From positions 1 through 64,000 of the forward strand of contig JADZEX010000082.1 in assembly GCA_020850355.1 (NCBI GenBank): 64,000 bases of DNA, given 5' to 3'. A model generated the notes under the pieces. It was not told the origin of the DNA, ran no database searches, and saw nothing but the letters and a program-made list of their open reading frames with translations. Within the stretch, counting starts at the first letter, position 1; every line of letters begins with the position of its first letter. Position numbers and translations under genes: made by a program. Positions 29,846 through 44,962 of this stretch are shown here, one piece after another. The stretch is from Fimbriimonadaceae bacterium (lineage in GTDB: Bacteria > Armatimonadota > UBA10988).

Positions 29846-30703
29846 ATGATGACGTCGGAGTTCAGTTTGCCTGCTACCACCGATGCTGTCTTCGCCGCCG
29901 CCGCGGCCGGCGATCGGCCTGCGCTGATCGCTCTGCTCGAGGCCGACGCCGGCCTGCTCTGTGCCCGCCGCGTGGGCGCCGACGGCCCGCGCGGCAGCAG
30001 CCGCAAGACCTTGCTGCAGGTCGCCGCGGAGGCCGGGCACTTGGAGCTGGTGCAGGCCTTGGTCGACCGCGGTGCCGAGCTCACCGAGCGGGCCGAATGG
30101 GGCTATCCGGCGGTGATGCACGCCGCTTGGGCCAAGCAGCAGGCGGTGGTCGATTGGTTCCTGGGCGCTGGCGCGGCTCACGATCACGGCCAGGGCGATC
30201 CGTTCTACGGGCTGGGGGTGGACCTCAACAACGCGGGCCGCATGGGCTGGACTGCGATCGTCCGGCGGCATGTGGAGCGCGATCCCCTGGCGGTGCATCG
30301 GCGCGGCCTGATCGGCGATTCACCGCTGCATTGGCCGGCGCACGACAACCACACCGACATCGTCACGTTGCTGCTGGACGCTGGCGCGGTGATTGAGGCC
30401 GACGAGGTCGGGCTGTATGGCGGCAAGCCCTTGCACTGGGCGGCTGAGCATGCCCCGGCCACCACACGGCTGCTGCTGGAGCGTGGGGCCGACCCCAACA
30501 GCCGCAACGAGATGCCGGGCGAGATGCTGGGGATCACGCCGCTGATCATGTGCGCTCGCCAGCGCAACGACTGCGCCGAGTGCGCCGAGTTGCTGCTGGC
30601 CGCCGGGGCCGACCCGGCCGCCCGCGGGGCGGACGGGCGGACCGCGCTGGACTGCGCCACCGCCGCCGGGCTGCCGCGCCTGACCGCGTTGCTCAGTCGG
30701 TAG
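29846..30703 (+). CDS. Ankyrin-repeat protein
   Basis: 285 residues from ATG at 29846; the Shine-Dalgarno is weak. At least five ankyrin-type units are visible: LLQVAAEAGHLELVQALVDR, PAVMHAAWAKQQAVVDWFLG, PLHWPAHDNHTDIVTLLLDA, PLHWAAEHAPATTRLLLERG and ADPAARGADGRTALDCA. No other domain or signal peptide is present. It probably mediates protein-protein contacts in the cytoplasm. Its 3' end overlaps the convergent gene by 11 bp. Confidence 0.85.
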   Translation: MMTSEFSLPATTDAVFAAAAAGDRPALIALLEADAGLLCARRVGADGPRGSSRKTLLQVAAEAGHLELVQALVDRGAELTERAEWGYPAVMHAAWAKQQAVVDWFLGAGAAHDHGQGDPFYGLGVDLNNAGRMGWTAIVRRHVERDPLAVHRRGLIGDSPLHWPAHDNHTDIVTLLLDAGAVIEADEVGLYGGKPLHWAAEHAPATTRLLLERGADPNSRNEMPGEMLGITPLIMCARQRNDCAECAELLLAAGADPAARGADGRTALDCATAAGLPRLTALLSR

Positions 30704-32552
30704 GCGAGACCGTCAGCCGCAGCTCCAGGCGGCCGCGCCGCCCGGCCGGCACCGCGCCGCTGAGCGGATAGCCGGCCAGCAGGTACTCCGGCGAGCCGTA
30801 CTGCCGGTGGTCCACCAGGCTCAGCGGCAGGCTGCAATCGACGGTCACCGTGGCGGCCGGACCGGCGACCCGCAGTTGCCGGCTGGCCGGCAGCAGCGGC
30901 GCGGTACCCAGGTCGGCCGGCAGCGTGATGCTCTGTCCTTCGGCCGTCGCGCGGCAGCCGCGGTAGAGGCTCACCGGGAAGGCGACCCAGTGGCGCCAGA
31001 GGCGGATCTGCAGGTCGGTGGCCGCCTCGTAGTCGAACCGCAGCGTCAGCTTGTCGTCCGGGCCCACCGTGACCGTCTCGGTCAACGTCACGCGCGCCGT
31101 GTCCTGCGCCAGGCTGGCCTGAAAGACCAGCTCGACGGCGCCGTCGGGCTGTGAGCGGACCGCCGGTGCGGCGGTCGCGGTGGCGGTGAAGGCCTTGAAG
31201 GGTGGGGCGGCCAGCAGCGGCCAGCCGCCGGTCAGCAGGCTCTGTCCGCGCCATTGCAGCGCCTTCAGCTCGCCGGTCGCGGCGAACCAGAGGTCCAGCC
31301 CGCCGGGCGTTTGGACGACCTGCTGCCCATCCACCGCGGCGGCGCGCACGGCCGCTGGGCGCTCGCGAGTCAGGCGCAGCGGCTGGTCGTCGCCGGCTGT
31401 CGGCGGGTCGTCGGTCGTCAGCAAGATCCGACCGTCCAGCAGTGGCAGCGTGAAGCGCGTGCCAACCCGGCCGCTGCTGACCTCGCGGTAGCGCCGCGGC
31501 AGCTCGACGGCGGTGTCGTAGCGGCTGCCGTTGACCAACACCAGGCCGCCGTCGAACTCGCGCTGCCAGAGCCCGTCGGCGCGCTTGGTGGCGGCGCCCC
31601 GGGGATAGCCCAGGGGGGCGTCGTACTCGGGGTACCACCACCACCGGCCGCGCCCGATGTTGGCGGCATCGTACCCGAAGTAGCCATCGCCCAGCAGCGT
31701 GGTGGTGAGGCCAAAGCGCAGCGTCCGCTGGTCTTGCTGGCGGGCCTGCTCAACGTAGGCGACCTTCTGGTCATGGCTCAGGGTCTGAAACCCCCAGACG
31801 TCGGCGTCGAGGCCCTGCGGGCAGCAGACCAGCATCGTGGTCACCGGTCGCCGGCTCTCGCGGCACCAGCGCAGGTAGCGGCCGAGGAACTCCTCGAAGT
31901 CAACCTTGCCGGTGATCACCCGGTTGATCTCGTCCTCGGCCAGGCAGCCGTTGAGATCGCCGAAGCCCCGGCTCGGGAGGTTCCAGTCGTTGACCATCAC
32001 CACGGCCTGGCCGTTGCGCAGTTGCGCGGTGCGGGGGACCAGCCAGGGGTCGGGGCCCCAGCAGTCGTAGAACACGCCATCGAAGAAGCCGCGGCCGAGG
32101 ATCTGCTCGCGCACCTGGTCGAGGTTGTACTGCAGCACGTCGGGCCGCCTGGTGTTGATGCGGTCCATGCCCGGCCAGCCACTCCAGCGCTGGCCGTCGC
32201 GGAGGTCCCACCAGGCCGCCGGCAACTGCGGGTCGTAGGGTCCCTCGACGACGTCGACGTAGGGCAGGAACAGGGCGTGCGGGTTGACCTCCAGGATCCG
32301 CCGCGCGTTGGCCTCGTAGTTGGCCAGGTGGCGGGCCCACCGGGCGTGGGTCCAGTCGTAGTGCAGGTCGTAGCCGCCGCCGATGAAGAGGTCCACCTTG
32401 GACCAGTACTCGCGCCCCTGCTCCCAAGTCCGCCAGCCCAGCCCAGCGCCGTAGCAGTTGCCGATCCGCGGGTAGGGCGGGTTGACCGCCCCCAGATCGC
32501 GCGCGGTACAGGCGGTCAGCAGCGTCGCGCCGACGAACAGGCCGAGCTTCAT
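30693..32552 (-). CDS. Putative lipoprotein glycoside hydrolase (GHL15-like)
   Basis: 619 residues from ATG at 32552. The N-terminus (MKLGLFVGATLLTAC) has a lipobox-like LTAC, so it may be membrane-anchored. Residues about 30-340 look like a TIM barrel of the hypothetical glycoside hydrolase type: SKVDLFIGGGYDLHYDW, RRILEVNPHALFLPYVDVV, GFFDGVFYDCWGPDPW and VVMVNDWN. In this type an Asp in the FDGVFYDCWG strand is the likely acid. The C-terminal about 200 residues form beta-sandwich modules. The substrate is unknown. Confidence 0.72.
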   Translation of the reverse strand: MKLGLFVGATLLTACTARDLGAVNPPYPRIGNCYGAGLGWRTWEQGREYWSKVDLFIGGGYDLHYDWTHARWARHLANYEANARRILEVNPHALFLPYVDVVEGPYDPQLPAAWWDLRDGQRWSGWPGMDRINTRRPDVLQYNLDQVREQILGRGFFDGVFYDCWGPDPWLVPRTAQLRNGQAVVMVNDWNLPSRGFGDLNGCLAEDEINRVITGKVDFEEFLGRYLRWCRESRRPVTTMLVCCPQGLDADVWGFQTLSHDQKVAYVEQARQQDQRTLRFGLTTTLLGDGYFGYDAANIGRGRWWWYPEYDAPLGYPRGAATKRADGLWQREFDGGLVLVNGSRYDTAVELPRRYREVSSGRVGTRFTLPLLDGRILLTTDDPPTAGDDQPLRLTRERPAAVRAAAVDGQQVVQTPGGLDLWFAATGELKALQWRGQSLLTGGWPLLAAPPFKAFTATATAAPAVRSQPDGAVELVFQASLAQDTARVTLTETVTVGPDDKLTLRFDYEAATDLQIRLWRHWVAFPVSLYRGCRATAEGQSITLPADLGTAPLLPASRQLRVAGPAATVTVDCSLPLSLVDHRQYGSPEYLLAGYPLSGAVPAGRRGRLELRLTVSPTD

Positions 32553-32650: not shown

Positions 32651-33142
32651 GTGTATGCGGAAGCGCAGGCCGAGTTCGACTTCGTCCGACGGCTGCTGGA
32701 GATGGTCACGGTGCTGCATGACCGCGGCTACCAGGGGCTGCGGGCCTTCCCCTACTTGGGCGGCGCGGGCTTCCTGCGGCTGCAGCTCCAGGCGCCCGGC
32801 CGCCGCGAGGACCTCTACTACTCCTGCGCCGCCGGGTACGAGGCCTACGACCTGGTCGCCACGCCGGATCACACCGTCGGGCAACTGGCCACCGCCCTGG
32901 AGGCAGTCCAGGCGCGCTTCTTGGCTGCCTGTCGGCTGGCCGACCCGGCCTACGCCGCCTGGCACGCCGCGGCGTTGGAGGTCGCCGGGCCGCAGGGGAT
33001 CTACCTGATGCTCGACGGCAACCGGATGCCCGAACCAGCCGGCCCCTTCTACTGGCGGCCGGCAGACGACTGCCAGTGGGACGGTCGCTTGGAGTACTTG
33101 CCGCCGCAGCCGCCCCGCCCGCGCCGGCGGGCTCAGTCGTAG
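32651..33142 (+). CDS. Conserved hypothetical protein
   Basis: 163 residues starting at GTG 32651, with AGGAG 6 nt upstream. No domain is recognised. It contains a helical first half (AQAEFDFVRRLLEMVTVLHD), a beta-rich middle (GFLRLQLQAPGRREDLYYSC) and a Pro/Arg-rich tail. It lies divergent to the lipoprotein glycosidase gene, and its end overlaps the convergent propeller gene by 10 bp. No transmembrane or signal segment is seen. Confidence 0.6.
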   Translation: MYAEAQAEFDFVRRLLEMVTVLHDRGYQGLRAFPYLGGAGFLRLQLQAPGRREDLYYSCAAGYEAYDLVATPDHTVGQLATALEAVQARFLAACRLADPAYAAWHAAALEVAGPQGIYLMLDGNRMPEPAGPFYWRPADDCQWDGRLEYLPPQPPRPRRRAQS

Positions 33143-35523
33143 ACCAGTTGCGCCGTGGCGCGGACGTCCTGGTCGGCGCGGCAGCGCAGCCAGTAGGCGC
33201 TGAACCAGGCCGGCAGCGTGTGGCGCCAGGTCTGGCCCGGGCGCACCAGCGGGGCACGGTAGACCTGCCACAGTCCGGTGCCGCTGAGGTCCACCTCGAG
33301 GGCCATCCGGACGGCCTGCCGCCCATCGTGGCGGAGCGCCACACGGCGGCGGTCGAAGCCGGTCAACAGGTAGGGATCGGACGGCTCGCCGGCCCGGACT
33401 GGCGTGTCGAGCCACGGTCCGCCGACGCCGCGGGGCTTGCCCAGCCGCCACAACTCATCGGCGACGCCGACCCACAGGCCGGCCCGGCCGTCTGGTGTCG
33501 GCACCACCCGTGAGTGCCGGACGCCCGGCCGCAGTCCCGTCAGGACCAGCATCCCACGGTAGCTGCAGTAGTCGTGGACCAGCCGGTCGCTGCCGGCGAT
33601 CGGGCGCACTTTGGCGAAGCCGCCCGCGTTGCGGGCCGGGAGTTCGTAGAACAGGCCGCCCGCGCTGAACAGGTCGCGCTCGGTGCAGACTTCGCGGCAG
33701 ACTCGCAGCGGTACGGCCGGCTGCAGTGGCTGGCCACTGACTCGCGGCAACCGCCAGCGCGCGCCGTCGTCATCGACAAACAGCAGCGACGCGCCGTCGT
33801 GCTGCACCACGCCGACCGGGATGGCGACCTGCTCCTGCAACCACTGCTGCGCCGTCGGATCAGCCAGCGGGCGCAGTTGCAGGTCGGCGGTCAGCTCGTA
33901 GTTGCCGGTCGTCGTGACGCCCTCGCCGGCGGGCTGTTGCGAGACGTACTGCAGCGTCCGCAGGTTCTCGCCGCGCGCCCGCACGAGGCCGCCGACCCAC
34001 GGCTCCGTCGGCCTGGCCAACGGCTCGAAGAGCGGGTCCAGGGCCGCGCTGCGGCGGTCCTGGGCGGACAGCATGAACTGCGCCGTGAGCCCCTGGGCGG
34101 CGGTCTCGCAGCGCAGCCGGGCCCAGGTCGCGCGGGGCGTCGGCAGCGCGCGGTAGCCCCCCGGCGGCAGCGTCAGGTGGTGCCAGCGCTGCCAGCGACC
34201 GTCGCCGCTGGCGTCGACTTCCAAGGCCAGCTCCACCGGCTGGCTGCCGCGGTGGGTCAGGTGCAGGCAGCCGCGGTCGAAGCCGTGCAACAAGAACGGA
34301 TCGCTGACCGCCCCACGGGCGACATCGTCCTGCAGCCAGACTGCGCCGCGGCCGAGCGGTGGGCCGAGTTGGTCGAGACGCGCCGGATCGACGAACCAGA
34401 GATTCGAGTGGCTTTGCCCCGGCCCGGCGATCCGACCCTTCGCCGCACGGGTGTTCAGGAACTCGTTCTTGGCGGTGTCGTCGCAGCCCAGCACGACGCG
34501 GTCGCCCCAGCGGCAGAAGTCGCCGACCACCTTGAGGTACGTCGACCGCGGCGCCAGCCCACCGGTGTGGCCAGCCCGGAAGCCCGCCGGCAAGCGCCAG
34601 AACTGACCGTGCATTGTCAGCAGCAGGTCGCGCTCGCCGATCTCGCGGATCCGCGGCCACTCGGTGTTCCAGCCATGTGCGCCGTCGTAGCAGTGGCTCG
34701 CCTTCGGCAACCGGAAGCGGTGCCAGCGGCCACCGTCCAGCAACATCAGCAGCAGCGAGCGGTGGTCCCAGCCGATACTCCAGAGCGGGTCGTCGGCGGA
34801 GTCGTTGCCGCGCAGGCCACCTGGGCCGCTGACCTCGGTGAACTGGTTGCGCAGAATGGTCTGCCAGGTGCGTCCATCGAAACTCGCCAGACAGCCGGAC
34901 GGCGTCTCGGGCCGCGTCAGGGCCGCCGGGCCAACCTCGCCGTTGTTGGCATAGATCACCCGGCCCTGGGCCGTGAACAGCCCTTTGCCATGGTACCCGG
35001 GCAGCAGCGCCCCGGCCTTCTGGGAGGTGAAGTTGCCGTCGGTGAACAGCCGCTTGACCGCCAGCGTGCGCACGTCCACCTCGTACAGCCCTTCCTCCAT
35101 GGTGCCGTAGTAGACCAGCTCGGCCGGCCGCTGGAGATGCCGCGCGGTGCCGGTCAGGCGCCCGGGCATCGCCGCCGGCGGGATCACCCGCACCGCGCGC
35201 TGCGCGTCGATGGCGTAACGGCCGAGCAGCAGTTGTTGCGTCTCGCGGTGCACCAGCCGGTTGGCGTGGGTGCCACCGACGGACTCCGGCCGCACGGTCT
35301 GCTGCAACGCCGCATCGACCTCGTACAGCTTGTCGCTGGAGCCGAGCGGCGAGTGCGGTCCATAGGTGATCACCCACAGCCGACCGGCCCAGGGCACCAC
35401 CGCGCCGGTGCCGCACTCGCCTTCTTGGTTGTACATCGCCAGGCTGGGATAGACGCCACCCACCTCGGGCGGCAGCGCCGCCAGAGGGCTGCACAGGGTC
35501 AGCACCAGGGTCAGCCTCCACAT
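33133..35523 (-). CDS. Large secreted beta-propeller-like protein with internal duplication
   Basis: 796 residues from ATG at 35523 (GGGAG 9 nt upstream), with a signal peptide (WRLTLVLTLCSPLAALPP). The chain is beta-rich with many short G-x-W and Y-x-V-D strands (LWVITYGPHSPLGSSDKLYE, ELVYYGTMEEGLYEVDVR), which suggests a propeller. A segment of about 70 residues occurs twice, starting SDPFLLHGFDRGCLHL near residue 410 and SDPYLLTGFDRRRVAL near residue 725. Both copies have LALEVD/MALEVD and a Trp-Leu/Arg-rich end. No catalytic motif is visible. The role may be carbohydrate binding or surface structure. Confidence 0.7.
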   Translation of the reverse strand: MWRLTLVLTLCSPLAALPPEVGGVYPSLAMYNQEGECGTGAVVPWAGRLWVITYGPHSPLGSSDKLYEVDAALQQTVRPESVGGTHANRLVHRETQQLLLGRYAIDAQRAVRVIPPAAMPGRLTGTARHLQRPAELVYYGTMEEGLYEVDVRTLAVKRLFTDGNFTSQKAGALLPGYHGKGLFTAQGRVIYANNGEVGPAALTRPETPSGCLASFDGRTWQTILRNQFTEVSGPGGLRGNDSADDPLWSIGWDHRSLLLMLLDGGRWHRFRLPKASHCYDGAHGWNTEWPRIREIGERDLLLTMHGQFWRLPAGFRAGHTGGLAPRSTYLKVVGDFCRWGDRVVLGCDDTAKNEFLNTRAAKGRIAGPGQSHSNLWFVDPARLDQLGPPLGRGAVWLQDDVARGAVSDPFLLHGFDRGCLHLTHRGSQPVELALEVDASGDGRWQRWHHLTLPPGGYRALPTPRATWARLRCETAAQGLTAQFMLSAQDRRSAALDPLFEPLARPTEPWVGGLVRARGENLRTLQYVSQQPAGEGVTTTGNYELTADLQLRPLADPTAQQWLQEQVAIPVGVVQHDGASLLFVDDDGARWRLPRVSGQPLQPAVPLRVCREVCTERDLFSAGGLFYELPARNAGGFAKVRPIAGSDRLVHDYCSYRGMLVLTGLRPGVRHSRVVPTPDGRAGLWVGVADELWRLGKPRGVGGPWLDTPVRAGEPSDPYLLTGFDRRRVALRHDGRQAVRMALEVDLSGTGLWQVYRAPLVRPGQTWRHTLPAWFSAYWLRCRADQDVRATAQLVYD

Positions 35524-35539
35524 CGTTGCCAGCTCCCGC

Positions 35540-35578
35540 ATGACAAGGCTGTCATGGCCTGCGGGGGTGGTTTGTCAT
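35540..35578. promoter_or_regulatory. Possible operator repeats (ATGACA/TGTCAT)
   Basis: In the divergent region, ATGACA-aggc-TGTCAT (35540-35555) is a perfect inverted repeat, and a further TGTCAT occurs at 35573-35578. It could be a regulator site for the propeller gene and the Gly-rich protein gene. No promoter hexamers with good spacing were found. Confidence 0.3.
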
Positions 35579-35638: not shown

Positions 35639-35956
35639 ATGTCGACGCACCGCAGCAAGCTCTGGATTGCCTTCACGGCGGTCCTGCTGATGGCCGCCGT
35701 GGCCCTGGCCCAAGGCCCGGGCGGACGAGGCGGCGGACGAGGGTTCGGCGGCGGCGGTGAGCAGGGCGGCCCCGGCGGCCCCGGCGGTCCCGGTGGTCCG
35801 GGCATGATGCCGCCAGCGGCGATCACCGCCACGGCCGACGCGCTGTTTGTGGTGCAGGGTCCGCTGATCTACCGGCTCGACCCGACCACGCTGAAGGTGC
35901 AGGCCCAGGCTGAACTGCCGCGGCCCGAGCGTCCGGCCACCGCGCCGGCGCAGTAG
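35639..35956 (+). CDS. Small secreted Gly-rich protein
   Basis: 105 residues from ATG at 35639 (AAGGAG 7 nt upstream). It has a signal peptide (SKLWIAFTAVLLMAAVALAQ), then a low-complexity segment of GGRGGGRG and repeated GGPGGPGGPGG, then a folded-looking tail (ADALFVVQGPLIYRLDPTTL) resembling one propeller or PQQ-like strand set. Small proteins of this kind occur in planctomycete/armatimonad genomes without known function. A strong terminator follows directly. Confidence 0.7.
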   Translation: MSTHRSKLWIAFTAVLLMAAVALAQGPGGRGGGRGFGGGGEQGGPGGPGGPGGPGMMPPAAITATADALFVVQGPLIYRLDPTTLKVQAQAELPRPERPATAPAQ

Positions 35957-36045: not shown

Positions 36046-36073
36046 CCGCGGCCCGTCGCCAGACGGGCCGCGG
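36046..36073. terminator. Perfect hairpin between convergent genes
   Basis: A 12-bp perfect stem (CCGCGGCCCGTC with GACGGGCCGCGG) and a 4-nt loop lie between the Gly-rich protein gene and the convergent membrane protein gene. There is no T-run on either side, so termination by this hairpin alone is uncertain. Confidence 0.4.
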
Positions 36074-36087
36074 TGTGGTCTCCGACC

Positions 36088-36486
36088 TCACGCCGGCGCC
36101 CGCTCCGGAGCGGGCGGGTTGCTGCGTCGACGGCGCCGGACCGGGGCCAGCTCGGTCACCACCGCCCCGTGCAGCTCGTCGCAGCGGTGCTGCTGCTGCG
36201 CCAGGCCAGCCCGCACCGCGCCGAGCTCACCGGTCAGCCCGCCCAGCCGATCTTCCTGCGCCTGCAGCCGCGCCGCCAGCGCGTCGAGCCGGTCGACGAC
36301 CCGCGCCAGCGAAGGCGACCCATTGCCATCACCATGCACGATGCGCGCCGTCAGCTCCTGCGTCAGCCGGTCGACCCGATCACTCTCCCGCCGCTGCTGC
36401 CGCACGAACAGCACCAGCATCACTCCCGCCGCCACCGTCGGCAGGCCCAACTCGCCCACCGCCCGCACCCACTGCAAGTCCTCCAC
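36088..36486 (-). CDS. Small membrane-anchored coiled-coil protein (prophage-like)
   Basis: 132 residues. GTG at 36486 is chosen because GGGAGG lies 5 nt upstream; the frame stays open beyond the promoter region. A single transmembrane helix near residues 13-28 (LPTVAAGVMLVLFVRQQRR) is followed by a coiled coil (ESDRVDRLTQELTARIVHG, VVDRLDALAARLQAQEDRL) and an Arg/Pro-rich tail. Small TM-plus-coil proteins of this layout resemble holin/XhlA-like phage proteins. It is transcribed divergently from a LexA/CI-like repressor over a shared operator, so it is probably repressed until that repressor is inactivated. The specific role is unknown. Confidence 0.65.
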   Translation of the reverse strand: MEDLQWVRAVGELGLPTVAAGVMLVLFVRQQRRESDRVDRLTQELTARIVHGDGNGSPSLARVVDRLDALAARLQAQEDRLGGLTGELGAVRAGLAQQQHRCDELHGAVVTELAPVRRRRRSNPPAPERAPA

Positions 36487-36507
36487 AAGGCCCTCCCGCG
36501 CCCAGCA

Positions 36508-36527
36508 CTTGTCTGGGTGTTGACAAG
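36508..36527. promoter_or_regulatory. Second operator-like inverted repeat
   Basis: CTTGTC-8 nt-GACAAG overlaps the rightward -35 and lies downstream of the leftward -10. It carries the same CACTTGTC half-site as the 21-bp palindrome 30 bp away, so the same repressor may bind both. Confidence 0.5.
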
Positions 36528-36548
36528 CATAGGGCAGGGCGATACACT
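36520..36548 (+). promoter_or_regulatory. Rightward promoter of the S24 repressor gene
   Basis: TTGACA (36520-36525), a 17-bp spacer and TACACT (36543-36548). The -35 is a perfect consensus. The -10 lies inside the 21-bp palindrome, so repressor binding there should block its own transcription. Confidence 0.75.
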
Positions 36549-36554
36549 TGTCAA
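36526..36554 (-). promoter_or_regulatory. Leftward promoter of the membrane protein gene
   Basis: On the minus strand TTGACA (36554-36549), a 17-bp spacer and TATGCT (36531-36526). Its -35 lies inside the same 21-bp palindrome that covers the rightward -10, so the two promoters are back to back and overlapping. Confidence 0.65.
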
Positions 36555-36561
36555 GTGTATC
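36541..36561. promoter_or_regulatory. Perfect 21-bp palindromic operator
   Basis: GATACACTTG, a central T, and its exact reverse complement CAAGTGTATC. It covers the -10 of the rightward and the -35 of the leftward promoter. It is the obvious binding site for the XRE/S24 repressor encoded 78 bp to the right. Confidence 0.75.
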
Positions 36562-36638
36562 CAGCATCGCGTCGGTTGGATAAGAGGCGCGGTTGGGCGG
36601 CTCGGTACCGGTGGGGGCGATGCGGTGAGGAGTGGCCG

Positions 36639-37262
36639 ATGGCACGGCGGTCGATTGGCGGGGTGCTGCGCGAGTTGCGGGCGCGGCAGGGGTTGACGCA
36701 GTTGCAGTTGGCGGAGCGCCTCGGGACGCGGCAGGCGGTGGTCTCGGCGCGTGAGAACGGCAGCAGTGGCGTGCCGGTCGAGCAGTTGGAGGGCTACGTG
36801 CGCGACGCCGACGCGGCCTTGCTGCTGACGCCGCGCGGGTGGGAGGTCTGGGAGTCGCCGACGCTGGCGCTACCGAGCTACGGGGCGGTGCCCTGCGGGC
36901 AGCCGCTGGCCGTGGCTGAGGAGGCCGACGAGATCGACTTCGGGGACCTCACCGACGGGTTGTGGGACGGGGCGCGCTGCTTTCTGATCCGGGCCGATGG
37001 CGATTCGATGGAGCCGCTGATCCGGTCGGGCGACTGGCTGATTGTCGACCGGCGCCGGACCTGGGCGGAGTTTGACGTGGTCGTTGCGACGGTCGGGGAG
37101 TTCACCACGGTGAAGCAGGTGCAGGCGCATCCGGAGCGGTGGGGCGAGTGGGTCCTGGCGCCGCTCAACGAGCGCCACTCGCTGATCGATGCGGGCGACG
37201 AGACGGTGGCGATTCACGGGGTGGTGGTGGGCCAGCTGCGTTGCCGGCGGGTCGGGCGCTGA
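36639..37262 (+). CDS. XRE-family repressor with LexA/CI-type S24 peptidase domain
   Basis: 207 residues from ATG at 36639 (GAGGAG 6 nt upstream). Residues 7-55 form an XRE helix-turn-helix (LRELRARQGLTQLQLAERLG, VVSARENG). The C-terminal half is a self-cleaving S24 domain: YGAVPCGQPLAVAEE holds a Cys86-Gly87 scissile site in place of the usual Ala-Gly, GDSMEPLI supplies nucleophile Ser123, and TTVKQV supplies general base Lys159. Such repressors are cleaved upon RecA filament formation, giving DNA-damage induction of the genes they control. The operator overlaps its own promoter and that of the divergent membrane protein gene. A small unknown gene follows 13 nt downstream. Confidence 0.9.
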   Translation: MARRSIGGVLRELRARQGLTQLQLAERLGTRQAVVSARENGSSGVPVEQLEGYVRDADAALLLTPRGWEVWESPTLALPSYGAVPCGQPLAVAEEADEIDFGDLTDGLWDGARCFLIRADGDSMEPLIRSGDWLIVDRRRTWAEFDVVVATVGEFTTVKQVQAHPERWGEWVLAPLNERHSLIDAGDETVAIHGVVVGQLRCRRVGR

Positions 37263-37275
37263 GCGGGAGGGTGAC

Positions 37276-37605
37276 ATGCAGGAGCAGTTCGAGGTGCTGA
37301 CCGCGGTGGGTGCCGAGTTGTCGCCCCGGATTCTGGTGCGGGGGCGGGTCTGGCCGGCTCGTGGCGGCGACCGCCGAAGCCAGCGTCAGCCTTGCCGGGT
37401 GGTTTCGACTCACCGCCTGGCGGTCCCGCGCGGCGCCCGCGATGTGCGGCCCGGGCGCTGCCTGCGCGGCGCCGACGGCGCGGTGTACACGGTGCTGGCG
37501 CCCTCCTGGCGACGTGGCGCGCCGGACGAGAGCCGCTGGGAGTTGCAGCGCGTGCGCTGTCCGGCCGACGACATCACCGCGCGGCTGCTGGCCCGCCTCG
37601 GCTGA
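37276..37605 (+). CDS. Hypothetical small protein downstream of the S24 repressor
   Basis: 109 residues from ATG at 37276, with GGGAGG about 5 nt upstream. It is Arg-rich and mostly beta in character (EQFEVLTAVGAELSPRILVR, DGAVYTVLAPSWRRG, RWELQRVRCPADD). No domain is recognised. Its spacing of 13 nt from the repressor gene shows it shares that transcript, and it may be part of a prophage-like remnant. Confidence 0.6.
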   Translation: MQEQFEVLTAVGAELSPRILVRGRVWPARGGDRRSQRQPCRVVSTHRLAVPRGARDVRPGRCLRGADGAVYTVLAPSWRRGAPDESRWELQRVRCPADDITARLLARLG

Positions 37606-37612
37606 GATGCCG

Positions 37613-37642
37613 CCAGCGGGGCCGCGGCGGCGGCCCCGCTGG
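37613..37642. terminator. Strong hairpin between convergent genes
   Basis: A 13-bp perfect stem (CCAGCGGGGCCGC with GCGGCCCCGCTGG) and a 4-nt loop lie 8 nt after the stop of the hypothetical gene and 22 nt from the pseudopilin stop. It is followed by GTTGCC, so the U-tract is poor. It may serve both strands. Confidence 0.45.

Positions 37643-42702: not shown

Positions 42703-44962
<2,260 letters not shown>

Follow-up and report, generated by a model that had tools for sequence, protein, structure and literature searches.

Is a repressor gene that is transcribed divergently from a gene for a putative membrane protein, with both promoters overlapping, the control element of a lysogeny decision or that of a stress response? 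The former had been proposed in a preliminary description of the locus studied here, in which a divergent arrangement, a repressor of the self-cleaving type and a shared operator were recognised. These three elements are supported by the sequence, and the lysogeny type of the switch is not. With moderate confidence, we interpret the locus as a three-gene stress-response module around an orphan LexA-like repressor (XRE + S24), which would be released by DNA damage. It would add one more case, an unusually tidy one, to a well-known class of stress switches. The main rival interpretation is that of a prophage remnant.

Organisation of the locus

The locus (36046-37642) is a compact unit in a chromosomal contig with 70% GC, which belongs to a 6.67-Mb draft genome. 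It is bounded by two perfect GC-rich hairpins, between which the leftward gene, the divergent control region, the rightward repressor gene and a gene for a 109-aa protein are arranged in this order (Table 1). A consensus intrinsic terminator was not found for the end of the leftward gene, where the first hairpin is located. The third-position GC of 0.87-0.92 and the codon-position GC fit real genes for all three genes of the module, and no Rfam match to a structured RNA was obtained.

Table 1. Features of the divergent locus and their coordinates
Feature	Position	Strand	Evidence or remark
Hairpin, perfect 12-bp arms, without T-run	36046..36073	.	3' of the leftward gene; possible terminator
Leftward gene, 132 aa, TM helix 11-29, coiled coil, basic tail	36088..36486	-	Sequence analysis
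Weak candidate second operator, CACTTGTC-N8-GACAAG	36506..36527	.	Right arm overlaps rightward -35
Rightward promoter TTGACA-17-TACACT (repressor operon)	36520..36548	+	10/12 consensus matches
Leftward promoter TTGACA-17-TATGCT (membrane/coiled-coil gene)	36526..36554	-	10/12 consensus matches
Perfect 21-bp palindrome, GATACACTTG-T-CAAGTGTATC	36541..36561	.	Probable main operator
Repressor, 207 aa, XRE helix-turn-helix + S24, Cys86-Gly87/Ser123/Lys159	36639..37262	+	Profiles, alignment, model
Second gene of the repressor operon, 109 aa, weakly phage head-tail connector-like	37276..37605	+	Profile, fold
Hairpin, perfect 13-bp arms	37613..37642	.	Between convergent genes; possible bidirectional terminator

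The neighbours with a family match include glycosyl-hydrolase-like, ankyrin-repeat and prepilin-type proteins, amidohydrolases and a histidine kinase with a receiver domain. A 683-aa gene product (42703-44754) looks like the DNA ligase LigA, and its gene is conserved in relatives. Membership of the locus in a defence system was considered and rejected because the matches were only weak ones at the level of the helix-turn-helix or at chance level. Two side observations concern the surrounding window, i.e. the whole 64-kb stretch of DNA that was analysed. ARAGORN predicted a tRNA-Pro(CGG) at 31599-31679 (+), which is antisense within a long coding gene (30693-32552, -) and probably a false positive. 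Moreover, a small protein without Pfam match is encoded at 35639-35956 (+), whose N-terminus resembles a signal sequence and which contains a long stretch rich in Gly and Pro (GGPGGPGGPGGPG).

The repressor is of the self-cleaving type and distinct from LexA

The rightward gene product combines an N-terminal DNA-binding domain (HTH_3, 33.5 bits vs a cut-off of 23; helices at residues 6-61 in the structure model) with a Peptidase_S24 domain that scores over the cut-off (PF00717, 64.6 vs 23.3 bits). As already stated in the preliminary description, Cys86-Gly87, Ser123 and Lys159 mark a self-cleaving type of protein: in alignments they correspond to the residues for cleavage and catalysis in UmuD and LexA, and Ser123 and Lys159 are invariant in an alignment of 20 proteins. 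The structure model has a mean pLDDT of 80, with values of at least 90 across most of the catalytic domain, and it matches lambda CI, UmuD and full-length LexA in complex with RecA. Among protein families, PHROG 4 (phage repressors) gives the best overall match. Among solved structures, residues 10-66 match the HigA2 antitoxin, and the helix-turn-helix region also matches the Y4mF/HipB antitoxin subfamily below the cut-off of this model. Sequence comparison with solved structures places the S24 domain nearest to UmuD, and both proteins have the same Cys-Gly cleavage site. However, UmuD lacks a helix-turn-helix and partners UmuC, and no polymerase gene was recognised beside the module. The repressor can probably undergo self-cleavage in the manner of the SOS repressor LexA. 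For an intact S24 repressor, damage would be the trigger expected a priori, and with its catalytic residues intact it is reasonable to suppose that the repressor is damage-inducible.

The genome encodes only two S24 proteins, the repressor and LexA. We rejected the possibility that the repressor is LexA proper because it reaches 43.5 bits with TIGR00498 (cut-off 110.95) and a separate true LexA with a winged helix is present (G000:C81). A GAACATGAGTTT box is located about 60 bp upstream of the lexA start and belongs to the GAACN4GTTY type, which is known from Gram-positive bacteria. No GAACN4GTTY box occurs in the 64-kb window. Given a separate LexA with a box of this kind upstream of its gene, and none in the window, the module is probably not under LexA control.

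It is unlikely, in our view, that the repressor works independently of RecA, in which case it would undergo basal autocleavage and be relieved by reduced synthesis or by another signal. A precedent is IrvR from Streptococcus mutans, a chromosomal LexA-like repressor that has the same overall design and adjoins its target; it autocleaves without RecA and responds to stresses other than damage (PMC7101444). Moreover, PrlP, which also consists of XRE and S24 domains, has been linked to acid, oxidative, osmotic and heat stress (PMC12273997). However, the catalytic domain of the repressor is closest to UmuD and LexA, which are both stimulated by RecA, and RecA independence was called exceptional by its discoverers.

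The control region appears to contain one convincing operator

Both promoters have 17-bp spacers and run in opposite directions through one 35-bp stretch, in which the -35 of each promoter abuts the -10 of the other. Such sites are not expected by chance (0.0 in dinucleotide-preserving shuffles of a 1.9-kb region), and only four sites with at least 10 of 12 matches exist in the whole 64 kb, two of them being these promoters. Thus, the two overlapping divergent consensus-like promoters of the preliminary description are confirmed. The 35-bp stretch forms an imperfect inverted repeat with the exact outer arms TTGACAAG and CTTGTCAA, a symmetry that largely arises because each arm carries a -35. 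Because the promoters share these 35 bp, they cannot both be used by RNA polymerase at once. Their near-consensus strength makes most sense if the promoters are normally repressed.

The palindrome had been described to cover the rightward -10 and the leftward -35. Indeed, its 10-bp arms are 100% complementary, arms of this length occur in 0.1% of the shuffles of the intergenic region, and it spans the rightward -10 and start region as well as the leftward -35. Since parts of both promoters are covered, one bound dimer would block both. A search for the palindrome elsewhere in the genome, which had been suggested previously, revealed that its 13-bp core is unique at zero or one mismatch. At two mismatches, 62 places were detected vs 106 for a reversed control pattern, and there is hence no surplus. 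Such a uniqueness would be expected for a dedicated local repressor, and the palindrome is the probable main operator. A 16-base form of the palindrome is present in 13 viral contigs, which is about the number estimated for chance, and the DNA fetched around these 13 copies contained no relatives of the repressor. Relatives of the repressor are likewise missing from the vicinity of three further places in two genomes of the phylum.

A second inverted repeat with the same half-site had also been reported. It exists, and no other CACTTGTC-N8-GACAAG arrangement occurs in the genome. However, as an operator it is weak because half of the repeat is the -35 hexamer, and only the left CACTTGTC copy thus counts as independent evidence; a palindrome 8-mer turns up in 0.4% of shuffled flanks. 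Furthermore, the symmetry of the repeat ends at its six-base arms. Judged from the sequence, the control region appears to contain one convincing operator rather than two.

The leftward gene product and the lysogeny question

The leftward gene most likely starts with the GTG codon at position 36486, which lies within a longer open reading frame (36088-36645) and is preceded by GGAGG at a distance of 5 nt. The deduced protein consists of a single hydrophobic segment (residues 11-29), arginines, a heptad-rich coiled coil and a basic proline-rich tail, in agreement with the transmembrane-plus-coiled-coil product described earlier. Profile searches uncovered neither a family above the cut-off nor a helix-turn-helix match or DNA-binding domain, and no convincing relatives were found. 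When the positive-inside rule is applied, a cytoplasmic location of the coiled coil is probable, and this speaks against an Rz-type spanin.

In a lysogeny switch, a counter-repressor or an antirepressor is required, and several graded operators are usual. For a true bistable switch of this type, two operators and a leftward product that opposes the repressor have to be assumed. The genome-unique second inverted repeat with its CACTTGTC copy by the rightward -35 would fit such a scheme, and the leftward protein may be an antirepressor acting without DNA binding. However, the leftward protein lacks a helix-turn-helix match and is therefore not a Cro; it rather looks membrane-anchored. Moreover, the right arm of the second repeat is common to the -35, and the repeat is not symmetrical beyond six bases. 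With no Cro-type counter-repressor and one convincing operator, the lysogeny-type switch of the preliminary description is not supported, and we consider a bistable switch highly improbable.

A proposed LexA-like circuit and its relation to known systems

The simplest circuit is LexA-like, with one operator, negative autoregulation and derepression of both arms upon cleavage. The promoters, the palindrome, the residues and the gene order are all seen in the sequence; we infer binding and cleavage of the repressor, RecA as the trigger and an effector role of the membrane protein. In this circuit, a repressor dimer bound to the 21-bp palindrome would block both overlapping promoters. By this means, the operon for the repressor and the 109-aa protein would be held at a low, self-adjusting level, and the divergent transmembrane/coiled-coil gene would be kept off by the same dimer. 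After DNA damage, the S24 domain would cut between Cys86 and Gly87, most likely stimulated by the RecA filament. Loss of repression would then allow both near-consensus promoters to fire and to compete for the polymerase, and newly made repressor would bring about recovery. The logic would be that of LexA or of an autoregulated switch with one operator, and not that of a CI/Cro lysogeny decision.

The repressor shares with LexA the S24 fold with catalytic Ser and Lys residues, the cleavage before Gly and, as proposed here, negative autoregulation via an operator in its own promoter. However, LexA has a winged helix in place of the XRE-type helix-turn-helix, and the operators differ. Phage repressors of the CI/C2 type (PHROG 4) have the same XRE and S24 architecture as well as divergent overlapping promoters with a palindromic operator. 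In contrast to these systems, Cro, integrase and lytic genes were not recognised among the genes scanned alongside the module, only one good operator is present and the full-length identities are about 30% or less.

Among chromosomal systems, the IrvR/IrvA pair also involves a LexA-like repressor of phage-like ancestry beside its target in the absence of an intact prophage (PMC7101444). However, IrvA is Cro-like, whereas the neighbour is a membrane/coiled-coil protein here. The nearest damage-controlled chromosomal analogue is AlpR/AlpA from Pseudomonas aeruginosa, in which the self-cleaving AlpR is inactivated by damage and controls a gene of its own small cluster (PMC7969949). The type of repressor and the small cluster are common features, but AlpA is an antiterminator acting on a lysis cassette, and neither such a regulator nor such a cassette is present here.

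The 109-aa protein and the origin of the module

The gene for the 109-aa protein starts 13 nt past the repressor gene and has its own ribosome-binding site. It lies inside the stretch covered by the preliminary description, which ends at 37605, though it had been left undescribed. The protein has no Pfam match, and a head-tail adaptor is the top hit in PHROG (E=0.22). When its low-confidence model (pLDDT 50) was compared with the PDB using Foldseek, a mycobacteriophage connector ranked first (E=0.029, probability 0.96), and many head-tail joining proteins from a viral structure library match the same model. Furthermore, the protein and nine stopper proteins of phages can be aligned collinearly, with 31% identity over 52 columns and the motif VR-R..TH..DVR-G..LR..G..VLA. 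However, the resemblance is not significant, as 43 out of 1000 shuffled sequences scored at least as high in hhalign, and the lines of evidence are not independent because they all start from one sequence. The gene was thus rejected as a proven phage gene, its score being equalled by shuffles in 4% of cases, and the chances that the protein is derived from a connector are about even. The earlier statement that there are no other phage genes is therefore not secure: none of the ten neighbouring genes scanned was recognised as a phage gene, but this gene is weakly connector-like.

An orthologous module was not detected in 290 other genomes of the phylum, and none was found in the parts of the genome, viral, phage and plasmid collections that the searches covered, with the repressor alone as the query for genome contigs and plasmids. 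The inspected matches to the repressor in the phylum were mostly LexA-type proteins that align over the S24 domain only. As no orthologous module was found, the operator is without a phylogenetic footprint.

It is possible, if doubtful, that the module is what is left of a prophage, namely an immunity repressor with its control region, a connector-type protein and a phage membrane protein, the rest having been deleted. Such a remnant may still switch transcription, without a selected host function. PHROG 4 as the best family of the repressor, the phage connectors as the best profile and fold matches of the 109-aa protein, and the absence of the module from the same-family genomes and the rest of the phylum searched are consistent with this origin. 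However, the resemblance to connectors falls short of significance, and none of the scanned neighbours was recognised as a phage gene. The operator, the promoters and the reading frames are all intact, and the module agrees with the host genes in GC content and codon-position GC. The confidences given here are not exclusive, as both a remnant and a RecA-independent mode can overlap with the repressor circuit. In a more far-reaching interpretation, which we regard as quite unlikely, the module would be a domesticated chromosomal damage switch, i.e. a second regulon independent of LexA with one operator, a membrane-anchored coiled-coil output and a co-opted connector-like protein co-expressed with the repressor. 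If the stress-response interpretation is true, the bacterium would have a damage-response circuit apart from LexA with one operator and two mutually exclusive promoters. Such a circuit would offer a compact system for studying how repressors of the phage type turn into host regulators and what comes under their control. The module would be of modest interest if it is merely a prophage remnant.

The module was not found in three genomes of the same family, one of which is more than 90% complete. In these genomes, the outer neighbours are conserved and the gene order is broken on both sides, and insertion at an empty site could therefore not be shown. One gene of the region (33133-35541, -) encodes an 802-aa protein without Pfam match, which has counterparts with about 57% identity in two same-family genomes and a more distant relative in a third; it looks like a lineage-specific family.
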